NCBI GenBank assembly: GCA_016840645.1
Contig: JAEORY010000222.1
Coordinates: 1 to 6,621 of the forward strand
From: Candidatus Borrarchaeota archaeon
GTDB taxonomy: Archaea; Asgardarchaeota; Sifarchaeia; Borrarchaeales; Borrarchaeaceae
DNA: 6,621 nt
Direction: 5' to 3'
Part shown: in pieces, positions 399-5,421 of the stretch
Layout of the letters: every line of letters begins with the position of its first letter
How positions within the stretch are numbered: position 1 is the first letter of the stretch
Made by a program: the position numbers and the translations under genes
The notes under the pieces: generated by a model
Seen by the model: only the letters and a program-made list of their open reading frames with translations
What the model was told of the DNA's origin: nothing
The model's database searches: none

Positions 399-3335
399 CT
401 ATAATTCTAAAGTGATGTCATCAAACAGTTTTCGTTTTCCAATGAGAGTCAACAGCAGGCCTATGCCGCTTATCGCGCCTATTCGGGCAGTTAATGAAAT
501 TGCTGTGAGATTGAGACCTTGCGTAATTGTAAGACTAAGTTTTAGTTGTGAGGTTTGGTAACCCGATTTTTCGACGGTGACGGTTATCACATATTCACCT
601 GGTGGTAAACCTGAGGTATCTAGCACTGCTTCATAACTGCCTGGCTCGAATTCTTCACAGTTAAGGGTGTAATTAGAGTTCAGTGTGATGGTAACATGGG
701 CTTGCTCGATTGGGACACCTTGTTCATCAGTAACTTTTACCAAAATCTCCCTTTGGGCGTTATTACTTAGACGAGTGTCATTTTCCAAGTTAACTGTCAC
801 TAGTAATGATGCCGTTTCAGTTGATGAGCCACTTCCCCCTCCATTGTCATCATCTCCGCTCCCTCCGCCCTCGTTGCTGCCGCCATCTCCATCTGTCGGG
901 TCATCAGGGTCATTGGTTTCAAGTGAAACATTCGTCCCTATATAGGCATCGGCGATGGTTATCCCATAGCACAGTCCCGAACTGCCACCCTGAGGGGAGT
1001 TGCCATCTTCCGTAAAACTGGCGTGATACCAGTAGGTTTCCTGTGCGCCGATTAAGGCGTTGGACATCCCTAGCGTATCGCTTGAGGTGGCCACCATCTG
1101 CCTGGAGGCCGCACTCACCAAGTCCGCCCGGTTTTGTAGCTTAGCATCACTTAGGTAGGTGGCCAGTTTTTGCAGGGCATAACTGCTGCCGTAAGCCGGT
1201 CGAAGGGCGTTGAGTTCCACTGAGGTGGCGAATACTCCTTTAGTCTTGAAATTGTGGTCTCCCAGGCGTGAACTACCAGTGAAGGGAACGTTCCAGGCGT
1301 ATTGCCAGGTTATCAGCCACTCGGCAGTCAGGTTTGCTTTGGTTAGGTAGAGGGTATTATCGGTAAGTTCGTAAAAGCGAATTAGGGTCTTGAGCATATA
1401 TTCGGCGCTTTTGGAGTCGATGATATGCTTTTTATAGCCGTAATTGAAGTCGTAGCGCCCGGTATCCGCCCCAAAGAAGCGTGCCTTATCTACAAACTCG
1501 GTGATGTAATAATTCATAGCCAGCGTCGCGGCGTCCGAATAGGTGGTATTGCCGGTTAACGTCGCTAATTCCATCAGGCTCAACGCAAGAGTTACGCCGC
1601 CGCAGCCTGCGATATCGTTGCAACTGGAACTGAGTCCATTGGTCCAGGTGTTGCCAAACGTCCCGTTAGCAAACTGTTTAACTACAAAGATGTTGATGGC
1701 CGCTTCCACATACGCTAGCCAGTCGGGATGGCTGTCACCATATTGCTCCGCCACTAGATAACATTGCAGCAGGTTAGATAGTACCTCCCCGCTCTTGACG
1801 GTATGTACATCGCCGCCATGATCTCTGGCGTTAGCATACGAGGTATTGGTCTCCAGGTAGTAATCGGGTAATAGCCAGCCGTACTCATTCAGCGTGACGG
1901 ACGAGGGATTACGGCTCAAGTCCACGAATTCATCGATTATGTGGTTGGCAGTTGTAATCATGGAGTTGTTACCCGTCTGATAGCCATAATAGAGTAACGC
2001 ATATGCCAGGGCGTGTTGCTGCCCTAATTGACCACCTATGGAGCCGTTGCTTCCACCCAGGAATTCTACGGGAGTTCCATCACTGAAAAAGCCTGCCAAG
2101 AACAAGTATTCGTTATCAGTGTCATTTTCATGATAAAAGGTGCGGTAGGCGAGTTCGGCTTTGAGTTGTAGGATAGCTGGCATGCTTAACGTGGGATTGA
2201 CCGTTGAATAATTGCCGTTAATCCAATCCCATCCCAACTGTACTGGTGCGATGAATCCGTAATTGGGGGTAGTTGTCATGCCCAGATAGAGTCGGTAGGT
2301 TTTTTTGAGAGTGGTATTGGCATCGACGGTCAGGGAGTTCTTGTTGAAGGTCCACTCATACTGGTCGCGGCAACCTGGATTGTCCTGATTAATCTGATTA
2401 TGAAGATGTTTTGTATATGCATATCCTTCTCGTTGTGAGCCACCACTGGTCCAACCTCCCAGGTAGTTGATGAGGTCAAAATGATCATCATTACCTTGAT
2501 AACCCAGTGAGGAGTTACCAGTATGCTCCTGTCCGCCATACACATAAGTGGGAGTGGTAAGTAAGCCACACACAAAGTCATCGTACTCCCAGATAACTGA
2601 TGGTACGCTGAGGCGCTCCTGCTCCACGATGAGATACTGAGACTGGTTGCGTAAATCAGTCATGGGAAAATCAGGTGTTACCTGCCGATCTGCGGTATTC
2701 AAGTCGTAAAGGTTGCCGTTATAAAAGCAGCCGGGCATCATTAAGGTATCAGCTTTACGTGGGGTTACTGCTGCTGGATGGGTGATCGAAACATTGAAAG
2801 GTAGGAGCACTGCCTCTTCTACTGAGTCATTCAAATGTTCCCAGTGCCGTTCGATCTCTACATAATCCCACCCGTCTCGGATGGTGTAATAATCGGTGAC
2901 CTGCCAGAAATGGTCATTCGTGTCAATGATGGTCACACATTCCTGATAAAATTCTTCCCAACTGACACCTACCCGTTTAGGATAGATTTCTCTGATAGTG
3001 TAACTCCTAACCGGCGATTGCGAGGTATCTGGGGCTATTGAAACTTGAAAATGTCCCATGGTGGCAATTTCAGTCCAGTCATTACCATTCCACACGAAAA
3101 AGTAGGGTAAATAAGTGATTTGCTGTCCCGGGGGATTCTCCAGCAGTTCCTCAGTCATGAAACTGATGCGGATCCGCCCATTATCGATGGTGGGATCCAT
3201 AAATCCATCACCGTTATAATCGGTGGTCCCATCAAAGGAGATATCGGCCTTGACCTGCTGACTAAAAAAAGGTAAACCGAGTAATAACACCCCTATGAGG
3301 AATAAAACCCTATATTTTGCAGAATGAGGCACCAT
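399..3335 (-). CDS. Large secreted protein with C-terminal membrane anchor, possible (alpha/alpha)-barrel carbohydrate-active enzyme
   Basis: I cannot assign a family to this 978-residue protein. Residues 1-31 form a signal peptide: a basic start, the hydrophobic L-F-L-I-G-V-L-L-L-G-L-P-F-F, and a likely cut after V-K-A. About 32-350 is rich in Trp and Tyr with beta-type patterns. About 360-800 holds repeated helical stretches with conserved-looking aromatic, Gly-Gly and Asp-His-Gly-Gly-Asp motifs. This resembles secreted (alpha/alpha)6-barrel glycosidases or lyases, which is inference only. About 805-838 is a Gly/Ser/Asp linker. About 840-938 is an Ig-like beta-sandwich (V-T-D-E-Q-G-V-P-I...; L-P-P-G-E-Y-V-I-T-V). 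A membrane helix near 945-966 and a basic stop-transfer K-R-K end the protein. Many Asn-X-Ser/Thr sequons suggest a glycosylated surface protein. The gene has no partner nearby and is visibly richer in G+C than its neighbours, which fits acquisition by transfer. The ATG at 3335 is the first that gives a complete signal peptide. Confidence 0.8.
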   Translation of the reverse strand: MVPHSAKYRVLFLIGVLLLGLPFFSQQVKADISFDGTTDYNGDGFMDPTIDNGRIRISFMTEELLENPPGQQITYLPYFFVWNGNDWTEIATMGHFQVSIAPDTSQSPVRSYTIREIYPKRVGVSWEEFYQECVTIIDTNDHFWQVTDYYTIRDGWDYVEIERHWEHLNDSVEEAVLLPFNVSITHPAAVTPRKADTLMMPGCFYNGNLYDLNTADRQVTPDFPMTDLRNQSQYLIVEQERLSVPSVIWEYDDFVCGLLTTPTYVYGGQEHTGNSSLGYQGNDDHFDLINYLGGWTSGGSQREGYAYTKHLHNQINQDNPGCRDQYEWTFNKNSLTVDANTTLKKTYRLYLGMTTTPNYGFIAPVQLGWDWINGNYSTVNPTLSMPAILQLKAELAYRTFYHENDTDNEYLFLAGFFSDGTPVEFLGGSNGSIGGQLGQQHALAYALLYYGYQTGNNSMITTANHIIDEFVDLSRNPSSVTLNEYGWLLPDYYLETNTSYANARDHGGDVHTVKSGEVLSNLLQCYLVAEQYGDSHPDWLAYVEAAINIFVVKQFANGTFGNTWTNGLSSSCNDIAGCGGVTLALSLMELATLTGNTTYSDAATLAMNYYITEFVDKARFFGADTGRYDFNYGYKKHIIDSKSAEYMLKTLIRFYELTDNTLYLTKANLTAEWLITWQYAWNVPFTGSSRLGDHNFKTKGVFATSVELNALRPAYGSSYALQKLATYLSDAKLQNRADLVSAASRQMVATSSDTLGMSNALIGAQETYWYHASFTEDGNSPQGGSSGLCYGITIADAYIGTNVSLETNDPDDPTDGDGGSNEGGGSGDDDNGGGSGSSTETASLLVTVNLENDTRLSNNAQREILVKVTDEQGVPIEQAHVTITLNSNYTLNCEEFEPGSYEAVLDTSGLPPGEYVITVTVEKSGYQTSQLKLSLTITQGLNLTAISLTARIGAISGIGLLLTLIGKRKLFDDITLEL

Positions 3336-3530: not shown

Positions 3531-3579
3531 TCCAATACTACAATGTCTAAATGATATAATATACGCCGGGGTAGCCAAG

Positions 3580-3611
3580 AGAACACACCAAAATATGTGT
3601 TATTCTGGAAA
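3580..3611 (+). other. tRNA-Ser intron 1, D-loop
   Basis: About 32 bases. Central helix CCA (3575-3577) with TGG (3606-3608); 5' bulge AGA (3578-3580) cut after its second base; inner helix GAA/TTC (3581-3583/3603-3605) continued by CACA/TGTG (3584-3587/3596-3599). The 3' cut is placed after 3611 and could be after 3610. The outer helix is weak, so this is a relaxed BHB. Splicing gives a normal D-loop containing G18-G19. Confidence 0.65.
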
Positions 3612-3623
3612 CGGTACGGCGGC

Positions 3624-3650
3624 AGATTTGACAAAAGTCATATCCGCTAC
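3624..3650 (+). other. tRNA-Ser intron 2, position 28/29 in the anticodon stem
   Basis: 27 bases. Central helix GGCG (3618-3621) with CGCT (3645-3648), four pairs including one G-U. 5' bulge GCA (3622-3624) and 3' bulge ACA (3649-3651) are each cut after the second base. The inner helix is GAT-T-TGAC with GTCA-T-ATC (3625-3632/3637-3644), with one T-T mismatch and an AAAA loop. The site is non-canonical: it splits the anticodon stem, whose 5' strand GC|AGG exists only after splicing. Confidence 0.8.
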
Positions 3651-3659
3651 AGGCTCGAG

Positions 3660-3692
3660 ATCTCAAAAGCGCAAAAACCTAGAAAAAGAGAG
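3660..3692 (+). other. tRNA-Ser intron 3, canonical position 37/38
   Basis: 33 bases, at the usual archaeal tRNA intron site. Outer helix AGG/CCT (3651-3653/3694-3696). The central helix CTC (3654-3656) with GAG (3688-3690) has a G-A mismatch where a fourth pair would be. 3' bulge AGA (3691-3693) is cut before A38. The inner helix is poor (TCT/AGA only), making this the least convincing fold of the five, although the exon junction is well supported. Confidence 0.7.
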
Positions 3693-3707
3693 ACCTGCTG
3701 ACCCAGT

Positions 3708-3729
3708 GTAAATAAGTGCGTTTATGGAA
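3708..3729 (+). other. tRNA-Ser intron 4, variable arm
   Basis: 22 bases. Outer GAC/GTC (3700-3702/3731-3733), central CCA/TGG (3703-3705/3725-3727), bulges GTG (3706-3708) and AAG (3728-3730), inner TAAA/TTTA (3709-3712/3721-3724) with an eight-base loop. Splicing creates the variable-arm hairpin GACC-CAGT-GGTC. A shift of one base at the 3' end is possible. Confidence 0.75.
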
Positions 3730-3746
3730 GGTCGCATGGGTTCAAA

Positions 3747-3775
3747 AGAGTGTGTGGGGTTCCCTCCTCTGGAAG
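3747..3775 (+). other. tRNA-Ser intron 5, T-loop position 59/60
   Basis: 29 bases. The T stem is the outer helix. Central helix TTCA (3741-3744) with TGGA (3770-3773), four pairs with one G-U; bulges AAA (3745-3747) and AGT (3774-3776); inner GAG/CTC (3748-3750/3767-3769). Splicing yields the canonical loop TTCAAAT. Confidence 0.85.
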
Positions 3776-3793
3776 TCCCATCCCCGGCATCAC

Positions 3794-3800: not shown

Positions 3801-3935
3801 GAAAATCCTGCGTTTCAAACATAATATAGCATTGAATCTTAGCTACATTCTTTGAGATTTCAAGGTTTTTATTTAAGGCTATAAATTTCTAGAAAGAGCA
3901 ATTTTTAGAATATAAAACTGATGCGGCCGCCGGGA

Positions 3936-3963
3936 GTTTCCAATAGGAGAACATCACCTATTT
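3936..3963 (-). other. tRNA-Gly intron 5, T-loop position 59/60
   Basis: 28 bases. Outer helix is the T stem CCGGG/CCCGG. Central helix TTC with GAA plus an A-G mismatch (3969-3966 with 3941-3938); inner helix AATAGG/CCTATT, six perfect pairs (3962-3957/3947-3942). Cutting after A59 and before T60 restores TTCAAAT. Confidence 0.85.
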
Positions 3964-3976
3964 TTTGAACCCGGGT

Positions 3977-4019
3977 CTCCTGAAATGCATACCATCTAAA
4001 ATTGATGATATATAAACTT
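3977..4019 (-). other. tRNA-Gly intron 4, variable region (about 45/46)
   Basis: About 43 bases. Central helix CCTG (4025-4022) with CAGG (3982-3979). 5' bulge ATA and 3' bulge AGA are cut after their second bases. A strong inner helix pairs ATATCATC with GATGGTAT (4011-4004/3996-3989). A register with central CTGA/TCAG would instead give an intron of 41 bases and a six-base variable region, so the exact ends are uncertain. Confidence 0.65.
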
Positions 4020-4027
4020 ATCAGGCT

Positions 4028-4051
4028 TTCTTCACGACTGTGAAGTCAGTT
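4028..4051 (-). other. tRNA-Gly intron 3, canonical position 37/38
   Basis: 24 bases. Outer helix CAGGC/GCCTG (4062-4058/4026-4022) is the anticodon stem. Central CTCC (4057-4054) pairs with GAAG (4033-4030) at three of four positions. Bulges are CAA and AAA. The inner helix AC-GAC/GTCGT has a bulged T. The alternative hairpin CTTCAC/GTGAAG (4045-4040/4035-4030) would compete with the central helix. Confidence 0.75.
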
Positions 4052-4062
4052 TGGGAGGCCTG

Positions 4063-4092
4063 TTCGATCTAAGAAAGTTTTTCTTTCTTAGT
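4063..4092 (-). other. tRNA-Gly intron 2, position 26/27
   Basis: 30 bases, dominated by a perfect nine-pair inner hairpin CTAAGAAAG/CTTTCTTAG (4091-4083/4077-4069). Three-base bulges CAA and AAC sit at the expected places. The four-base central segment pairs poorly (G-C and G-U only), but is flanked by a five-pair outer helix GGCCT/AGGCC (4103-4099/4061-4057). Splicing joins D stem and A26 directly to the anticodon stem. Confidence 0.75.
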
Positions 4093-4104
4093 TGTCCTAG
4101 GCCA

Positions 4105-4124
4105 TTCTAGGAGAATATTCCTCT
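4105..4124 (-). other. tRNA-Gly intron 1, D-loop
   Basis: About 20 bases. Central helix CTAG (4130-4127) with CTAG (4110-4107); bulges CAA (4126-4124) and AAT (4106-4104); inner helix beginning GAG/CTC (4123-4121/4113-4111). A neighbouring register with central TCTA/TAGA gives a 22-base intron (4104-4125) and a shorter D-loop. Either register restores GTCT/GGAC. Confidence 0.65.
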
Positions 4125-4154
4125 TGCTAGACCACGACCGCATCTTTTAGTTTG

Positions 4155-4413: not shown

Positions 4414-5421
4414 ATGTATGAAGAATATGCGATGTGGGTAGAAAAATATCGCCCAAAAAGTCTAAAAGAAATAATAAACCAAGAAAGCATAGTACAAAGG
4501 CTGACCTCATTTGCTAAGACGAAATCAATGCCGCATTGTTTATTCGTTGGTCCTCCTGGGACAAGGTCTTTATTTCAATAAAACCTCCCAAATGGCAAAA
4601 CAACAGCGGCATTATGTTTGGCTCGTGATTTATTTGGAGAATATTTTGAAGGAAATTTGTTGGAATTGAATGCAAGTGATACCAGAGGTATTGACGTCAT
4701 TCGAACAACAGTAAAAAACTTTGCTAGAACAAAAGGACTTGGAGACGTACCATTTAAAATCCTAGTACTAGATGAAGCAGATAACATGACTTCTGATGCG
4801 CAACAAGCACTTAGAAGGACAATGGAGAAATACACGCGCACTTGTAGATTTATACTTATCGGTAATTACTCAAGTAAGATTATCGAACCAATACAATCAC
4901 GATGTTCTATATTTCGATTTCCTCCATTATCTCAAGAGGATGTTAAAAAGCAATTAAACAATATTGCTAAAAAAGAGAGTGTTGATCTTGCTGAAGAAGG
5001 CATTAATGCTATTTTGGAAAGTTCTAGAGGAGATATGCGAAATAGTATAAACATCCTACAAGCAGCAGCAGCGTTTGAAGATGAAATTAAAGCAGATGTT
5101 GTTTACCAAGTAACAGGCCGTGTCCATCCTGAAGAAATTAAAGAAATGATAAGATACGCACTTAACAATAATTTTATGGATGCCCGAGAACAACTTCATA
5201 AACTACTCATCAAATACGGTCTTTCGGGTATAGATATCCTTAAGCAAATGAATTCTGAAATAATGAATTTCAAAAATGATGACCTGAAAGTTAAACTTAT
5301 AAATTTGTTAGGAGAAGCAGAATTCAGGCTAAGCGAAGGTGCCAATGAGGAGATTCAACTTAATGCTCTTCTTGCAAATATTGTACTTCTGGGTGATAAT
5401 TATAAAGACGTTGAACTATGA
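4414..5421 (+). CDS. rfcS: Replication factor C small subunit, split by a 30-base intron (join 4414-4562, 4593-5421)
   Basis: This is the AAA+ small subunit of the clamp loader, which uses ATP to open PCNA and load it at primer-template junctions. The spliced product has 325 residues, a normal length for archaeal RfcS. It starts W-V-E-K-Y-R-P-K, the RFC box near the N-terminus. Walker A G-P-P-G-T-G-K-T is at 46-53, L-N-A-S-D-T-R-G follows, Walker B D-E-A-D is at 110-113, sensor 1 Asn is near 141, the arginine-finger S-R-C is at 152-154, and sensor 2 S-R-G-D-M-R ends near 199. The C-terminal collar is intact. Read unspliced, translation stops at TAA 4579-4581 after 55 residues, and the downstream frame lacks a P-loop. 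All other motifs are preserved and both parts share one frame, arguing for splicing over decay. The phosphoesterase gene follows after 46 bases on the same strand. No large-subunit gene is in view. Confidence 0.93.
4563..4592 (+). other. BHB intron in the rfcS mRNA, within Walker A
   Basis: A 30-base insert between codons for G-P-P-G and G-K-T. Central helix TGGG (4557-4560) with CCCA (4587-4590), four Watson-Crick pairs. 5' bulge ACA (4561-4563) and 3' bulge AAT (4591-4593) are cut after the second base. Inner helix AGGT/ACCT (4564-4567/4583-4586) continues, after one bulged C, as TTTAT/ATAAA with loop TTCA. Outer CC/GG (4555-4556/4594-4595) is followed, across a loop, by GTTG/CAAC. Cutting there joins AC to T, making the Thr codon ACT. 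This is the geometry that the archaeal tRNA splicing endonuclease recognises. Confidence 0.9.

Follow-up and report, generated by a model that had tools for sequence, protein, structure and literature searches.

The replication factor C small subunit gene (rfcS) of a Candidatus Borrarchaeota archaeon is interrupted within its Walker A motif by 30 bases (4563-4592) that very probably constitute an intron of the bulge-helix-bulge (BHB) type, which the tRNA-splicing endonuclease would remove from the mRNA with restoration of GPPGTGKT. Gene anatomy, frame logic and comparison with relatives agree in this reading, to which we give a probability of about 0.93.

The interrupted rfcS gene and its relatives

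The gene lies on the forward strand of the window, the whole stretch of 6,621 nucleotides that was analysed, and runs from an ATG at 4414 to a stop at 5421. Its product was identified as the replication factor C small subunit by NCBIfam NF001679 (E 3.7e-114 over 4618-5418). Translation from the ATG at 4414 yields VGPPGT, then RSLFQ, a stop, NLPN and GKTTAA, the frame being broken inside Walker A by a TAA; sequence and translation both bear out the 30 bases with an in-frame stop that the sequence-only reading had placed between GPPG and GKT. When the predicted intron (4563..4592, forward strand) is taken out, exon 1 (4414..4562, forward strand; codons 1-49 and two bases of Thr50, with GGGAC at its 3' end) meets exon 2 (4593..5421, forward strand; the T of Thr50, then GKT and onwards to the stop) in a 978-base frame of 325 codons and a stop, containing VGPPGTGKTTAA. 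The Thr codon is rebuilt across the junction from AC and T and Walker A becomes GPPGTGKT, exactly as had been foreseen for excision at the proposed cut sites. Elsewhere in the window, 402-3335 on the reverse strand encodes a predicted 978-aa protein in which weak matches to carboxypeptidase-regulatory-like and Ig-like domains lie close to the C-terminus.

The window is 92% identical over its whole length to a contig of Candidatus Borrarchaeum weybense and 93% identical over 5.5 kb to a B. yapensis contig, which places its source among Borrarchaeum-like Asgard archaea. Genome contigs were scanned and the best 80 rfcS loci kept; the four closest among them, all from MAGs, are those of B. weybense (L001), B. 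yapensis (L002), Sifarchaeum marinoarchaea (L003) and Borrarchaeota Yap75.bin3.45 (L004). An alignment of relatives for presence or absence of the insert had been suggested as a check, and all four loci proved to carry one at the codon interrupted in the window, of 30, 30, 28 and 31 bases respectively against 30 in the window. The length defined by the BHB equals the frame-restoring length in all five sequences; the frame is shifted by the 28- and 31-base inserts, and that of L001 contains two TAA codons in a row. Both exons are under purifying selection, with low dN/dS: between the window and L004, dN is 0.066 and dS 0.569 for exon 1, and dN is 0.092 and dS 1.074 for exon 2, the exon 2 comparison leaving out L003, in which a one-codon length difference spoils ungapped comparison.

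Walker A was intact in 191 of 195 tblastn rows crossing the motif (loci L001-L114), a count of rows and not of loci that includes duplicates and paralogues. The remaining four rows are the two Borrarchaeum loci, each counted twice; L003 and L004 fall outside the 195 because their matches are split in two at the insert. An rfcS-like match was obtained from 217 of 227 genomes of the same phylum; 91 of the 227 were searched again (G017 and G192 being left out of the rows viewed), and among the matches listed from the 227 the Walker A insert occurs only in four related genomes (G001-G004, of which G001 is B. weybense). Eight further genomes (G015, G058, G096, G103, G123, G157, G159 and G205) have a single stop in the rfcS match and at most 18 extra bases, and in three similar cases (L108, L113 and L114) the tblastn alignment contains no stop. 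In a Thermoproteota sample 386 of 398 genomes gave a match and, among the best rows listed, those of G381 and G444 report stops; among viral contigs 47 loci matched, none of them with more than 42% identity. As separate observations, the rfcS match in G059, G060 and G062-G067 exceeds the query stretch by 36 bases and is free of stops, probably reflecting a 12-residue insertion, and rfcS of G072 (contig C3) has a long, intein-like open-frame insertion after residue about 74-80.

BHB geometry and alternative explanations

The insert and its flanks can be drawn as a BHB hairpin at 4555..4595 (forward strand). Its outer helix CC/GG pairs 4555-4556 with 4594-4595, the 4-bp central helix UGGG/CCCA pairs 4557-4560 with 4587-4590, the 5' bulge ACA occupies 4561-4563, the 3' bulge AAU occupies 4591-4593, and the inner helix AGGU/ACCU starts from 4564-4567 paired with 4583-4586. 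The span of 4557-4594 originally given falls within this hairpin, and the pairing upholds its description: a central helix of 4 bp, a bulge of three bases on each of the two strands and an inner hairpin. Judged by sequence only, just one of seven registers of equal length forms a BHB, the matching length restores the frame, and the borders lie between the second and third base of each bulge. The central helix and bulges are strict in the window, L003 and L004 (one G-U), and the first central pair in L001 and L002 is a G-A mismatch, so that the BHB of B. weybense and B. yapensis is relaxed.

For an estimate of chance, the insert alone was dinucleotide-shuffled 20,000 times per sequence and a BHB sought in seven registers, both borders being slid together from -3 to +3. 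A hit needed an inner helix of four or more pairs and an outer helix of two or more, could contain a single G-U at most, and was allowed no more mismatches in the central helix than the real structure has. Such structures arose in 0.27% of shuffles for the window, 0.85% for L001 and 0.72% for L002 (their one mismatch being allowed in both), 0.195% for L003, 0.04% for L004 and 0.02% for G085, a Helarchaeota-like genome with another rfcS intron described below, the tests on the first five being mutually dependent because these sequences are related. The real helices of L003, L004 and G085 exceed the threshold set for shuffles. Folding of the 86-base region as a whole was no better than that of shuffles (z -0.09). 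In the minimum-energy fold of all six inserts the central helix gains a pair at its inner end and the 5' bulge is moved by one base; for the window this creates a 5-bp central helix, UGGGA/UCCCA, at which a cut would remove 29 bases and break the frame. The splicing endonuclease is known to need the 4-bp register, and because this register also restores the protein it was adopted. Alignment of the five inserts revealed one inner-helix pair changed on both sides, from G-C to A-U (Borrarchaeum versus Sifarchaeum/Yap75), and pairing held in 96.8% of cells versus at most 62.9% when slid by 1-3 columns, a control that favours a structure drawn from the same sequences. The covariation score, which comes from one pair in five sequences, was equalled or exceeded by 53 of 500 shuffles, and covariation alone is therefore weak.

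If the insert is a BHB intron, the rfcS transcript would fold into the 4-bp register, an endonuclease predicted to be an alpha-beta heterotetramer would cut after the second base of each bulge, RtcB would join the exons and the 30-base piece would be set free, perhaps in circular form. On an unspliced mRNA, translation would end at the TAA after 55 codons with Walker A incomplete, so that clamp-loader supply would depend on the tRNA-splicing machinery.

A split or decaying gene, made up of a small N-terminal fragment plus an RfcS that has its own start and an incomplete P-loop, is what databases annotate. Public RfcS proteins of the Borrarchaeum clade (P0001-P0008) lack the N-terminus and a complete P-loop; P0001-P0007 are 267-292 aa long, P0001 starting 3' of the insert and P0002-P0007 starting a few codons 5' of it in another frame, their first residues being translated from exon-1 and intron bases. 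For P0002 and P0004, however, the N-termini correspond to exon-1 and intron bases of L003 and L004 in such a frame, and purifying selection on both exons and conservation of the insert position across the clade also argue against this explanation. No second rfcS, which had been named as evidence that would tell against an intron, was found in G001-G004, the other matches there having 30-32% identity, and a small subunit without a P-loop would not work as an ATPase; a split gene is accordingly judged very unlikely. With the BHB-intron reading, by contrast, the clade's RfcS entries would be database errors, without a complete P-loop and in some cases with translated intron near the N-terminus.

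Read-through or recoding, in which the TAA is decoded and RfcS carries ten extra P-loop residues, might be entertained as Sifarchaeia are reported, in part of PMC9723677, to recode UAG (Pyl) and UGA (Sec), yet the string TAA occurs 0 times in the main text of that paper (a count that covers TAA and not UAA). Stop-codon recoding cannot explain the inserts, since two of the four in relatives (L003 and L004) shift the frame on read-through; the consecutive stops in L001 also oppose it, and Walker A would be destroyed if ten residues separated GPPG from GKT, leaving this explanation with very little probability. Equally improbable is programmed ribosome bypassing across the 30 bases, although gap size and hairpin resemble the known cases of phage T4 gene 60 and yeast mitochondrial byps. 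In hopping the landing codon resembles the take-off codon, whereas here take-off at GGG and landing at GGC would give GPPG-KT, with TG missing, and take-off at ACA with landing at the next exonic ACA would lose GK; moreover the hairpin is a BHB at frame-restoring borders in all inserts, and an intron of the known kind interrupts cbf5 in three of these genomes. An assembly or sequencing artefact, conceivable in so far as MAG stands in the titles of the four related loci and the window could come from one too, is likewise highly improbable given five assemblies with three insert lengths and base changes that keep most pairing, together with a different BHB intron in a sixth assembly (G085), and the assembly error against which the sequence-only reading had cautioned is thus unlikely. 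Finally, an intein was rejected for 30 bases with a TAA and no open frame with splicing domains, a group I or II intron for the length of only 30 bases and the lack of any Rfam hit in the window at E values up to 1, and the described cbf5 intron for the position of the window's intron in the rfcS Walker A and not in the cbf5 Asp codon.

Predicted introns and splicing machinery in Asgard genomes

The rfcS match of G085 contains four in-frame stops, and its DNA (L263; G085, contig C131, 8360-8960) has 30 extra bases close to the N-terminus, between YRPR and L. This insert forms a strict BHB with an outer helix AGGC/GCUU including one G-U, a central helix CACG/CGUG and an inner helix of 9 bp, and its excision, the join being made by hand, gives YRPRTLSEIINQ. 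Protein matches at 98-100% (P0121-P0126), two of which are named as Helarchaeota, place G085 in that group, and four relatives at 86-91% (P0127-P0130) also have a truncated N-terminus. Because this intron and the window's occupy different sites, they are most simply read as independent gains, and rfcS seems to have acquired BHB introns at least twice.

The cbf5 gene is interrupted in G001, G002 and G004 and intact in G085; no cbf5 above the family cut-off was found in G003. In DNA of the three genomes with an interruption, BHB introns of 35, 31 and 30 bases respectively were recognised, the excision of which gives HGGTLDPGVTG with the border between bases 1 and 2 of the Asp codon. We take the D of LDP in Asgard cbf5 to be the catalytic Asp at which the crenarchaeal gene is interrupted. 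For the latter, part of PMC2738675 states a border in the codon of the catalytic Asp, between bases 1 and 2. Restoration of cbf5 means that the known kind of archaeal mRNA intron co-occurs with the rfcS intron in these three genomes. Across the Asgard genomes, 215 of 227 gave a cbf5 match at E<=1e-15, and at least 14 of the 227 (G001, G002, G004, G005, G076-G083, G164 and G170) have a break or insert near profile position 70. DNA from eight of these 14 (L311-L318, from G002, G001, G004, G083, G077, G005, G170 and G164, in that order) showed LDP restored in all eight and a strict BHB in seven, that of G077 having A-C at the first outer pair. Separately, cbf5 of G012, G033, G070, G072 and G169 has long, intein-like insertions at profile position about 166-174; the intein-like insertions in cbf5 and rfcS sit in open frames of 769-902 aa.

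All four related genomes (G001-G004), from which the rfcS copy number and endonuclease of the window's organism are taken, contain two PF01974 splicing-endonuclease genes, one with a Tyr/His/Lys set, presumably the catalytic residues in their usual places, and the other without the His loop. Two such unlike subunits fit a predicted alpha-beta heterotetramer, and endonucleases of alpha-beta type are linked, in parts of the respective papers, with multi-intron tRNAs (PMC4090602) and with cbf5 splicing (PMC2738675). RtcB was detected in G001, G002 and G004 and not found in G003, a 1.8-Mb draft genome; G085 has two PF01974 genes as well. Contig C1 of G001 contains, at about 1-20000 (L145, L262), six intronless tRNA genes in a row and another alone, and also bears a second, divergent RtcB-like gene; this contig may be a foreign or mobile element.

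Two tRNA genes with five introns each lie upstream of rfcS in the window. That for tRNA-Ser(CGA) (3565..3789, forward strand) has introns at about 3581-3612, 3627-3653, 3664-3696, 3704-3729 and 3747-3775, and that for tRNA-Gly(CCC) (3922..4141, reverse strand) at about 4126-4105, 4093-4063, 4050-4027, 4021-3981 and 3963-3936, all edges being approximate. ARAGORN found neither in the unspliced window and recognised both once the introns were removed. Compared with L004, exons and introns are identical at 77 of 78 and 126 of 147 (86%) positions for tRNA-Ser and at 73 of 74 and 119 of 146 (82%) for tRNA-Gly, the spacer being 55% and the exons of both together 99% identical; these exons are nearly invariant in three relatives. 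A BHB with inner and outer pairs and no central mismatch, sought within 4 bases of the approximate edges, was obtained for two of the ten tRNA introns, Ser introns 2 and 5. In positions 1-1200000 of G001 contig C4 (L115-L134, L219-L258), ARAGORN reported one tRNA without and three with its intron search, and many tRNA genes of G001 may be hidden by multiple introns.

A de novo BHB scan of 400 kb of B. weybense (G001) produced 5,500 hits and nine coding candidates and was dropped as too unspecific; its codon-score threshold also missed the known rfcS case. A homology survey compared 1,049 ORFs from 1.15 Mb of G008 with 1.33 Mb of G001 that took in the 13-kb rfcS locus, and matched 493 of the ORFs, 287 at E<1e-20. 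The sole flagged place recognised as a BHB intron was rfcS. Five others, viewed by eye as DNA, comprised three split genes (one FeoB-like, two HdrD-like), a frameshift of one base and the start of a gene, and the rest were assigned from alignment alone to gene ends, paralogues and in-frame insertions of about 220-375 bases. As cbf5 lay outside the surveyed part of G001 and was found by directed search, the survey gives no total of other mRNA introns. No other close copy of the rfcS intron was present in the surveyed part, the best others listed being 11-15 bases, and an origin from a tRNA intron is thus without support. An HdrA-like gene, named by eye, at about 638600-641100 of G001 contig C4 has in-frame stops at places where the reference has Cys, and these may be selenocysteine codons.

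Significance and comparison with known systems

A passenger intron, slightly costly in a genome rich in tRNA introns, is as likely as one with a regulatory role. More tentatively, and with somewhat less than even odds, the data could point to an Asgard pre-mRNA splicing built on the tRNA-splicing endonuclease and reaching two or more core genes. One would be rfcS, with separate insertions at Walker A (Borrarchaeia/Sifarchaeia) and at YRPR-T (Helarchaeota clade); the other would be cbf5, the intron of which may go back to the common ancestor of the eukaryote-leading lineages; replication in Borrarchaeum would then depend on tRNA-splicing capacity. If true, the intron in the rfcS ATPase loop, the second insertion and the Asgard cbf5 introns would change a peculiarity of Crenarchaeota into a feature that recurs in archaea near eukaryotes, and would make testable how mRNA introns are gained outside the spliceosome and whether or not tRNA introns move into mRNAs.

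BHB introns are rarely described in archaeal protein genes. The view of the sequence-only reading that those in mRNA are best described in cbf5 agrees with the available part of a 2020 paper, in which one additional archaeal BHB intron, that of cbf5 mRNA, is reported (PMC7714728). In the open-access literature searched, with most subscription papers and preprints lying outside it, no report of a BHB intron in rfcS or another clamp-loader gene, or of an Asgard cbf5 intron, was found; an earlier prediction for some rfcS is possible, since a 2009 paper, in the portion consulted, mentions introns predicted in other protein-coding genes, none confirmed (PMC2738675).

Among known systems, inteins share a host and a type of site with the rfcS insert, RfcS being listed as a host and P-loops of other proteins as frequent intein sites in part of PMC5874633, but inteins are translated proteins whereas the insert has only 30 bases and includes a stop codon. 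Multi-intron tRNA genes of Thermoproteales and Atabeyarchaeia/Freyarchaeia have BHB introns at many positions, in tRNA and not mRNA; for three complete Asgard genomes, part of PMC11291895 gives introns in 92-95% of tRNA genes and several in over half. The HVO_1309 5' UTR of Haloferax volcanii belongs to an mRNA that the splicing endonuclease cuts at BHB sites according to part of PMC7714728, as is predicted for rfcS, but its BHB lies in an untranslated leader and that of rfcS inside the reading frame. For the crenarchaeal cbf5 intron of Desulfurococcales and Sulfolobales, sections of PMC2738675 describe a short BHB or BHB-like element in a core protein gene, cut between the second and third bulge base as is predicted for rfcS, at a catalytic motif and in lineages with a hetero-oligomeric splicing endonuclease. 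The rfcS intron differs in gene, site and archaeal kingdom and in that its splicing is predicted from sequence; rfcS very likely adds one more host gene to the known kind of BHB intron found in protein-coding genes of archaea.
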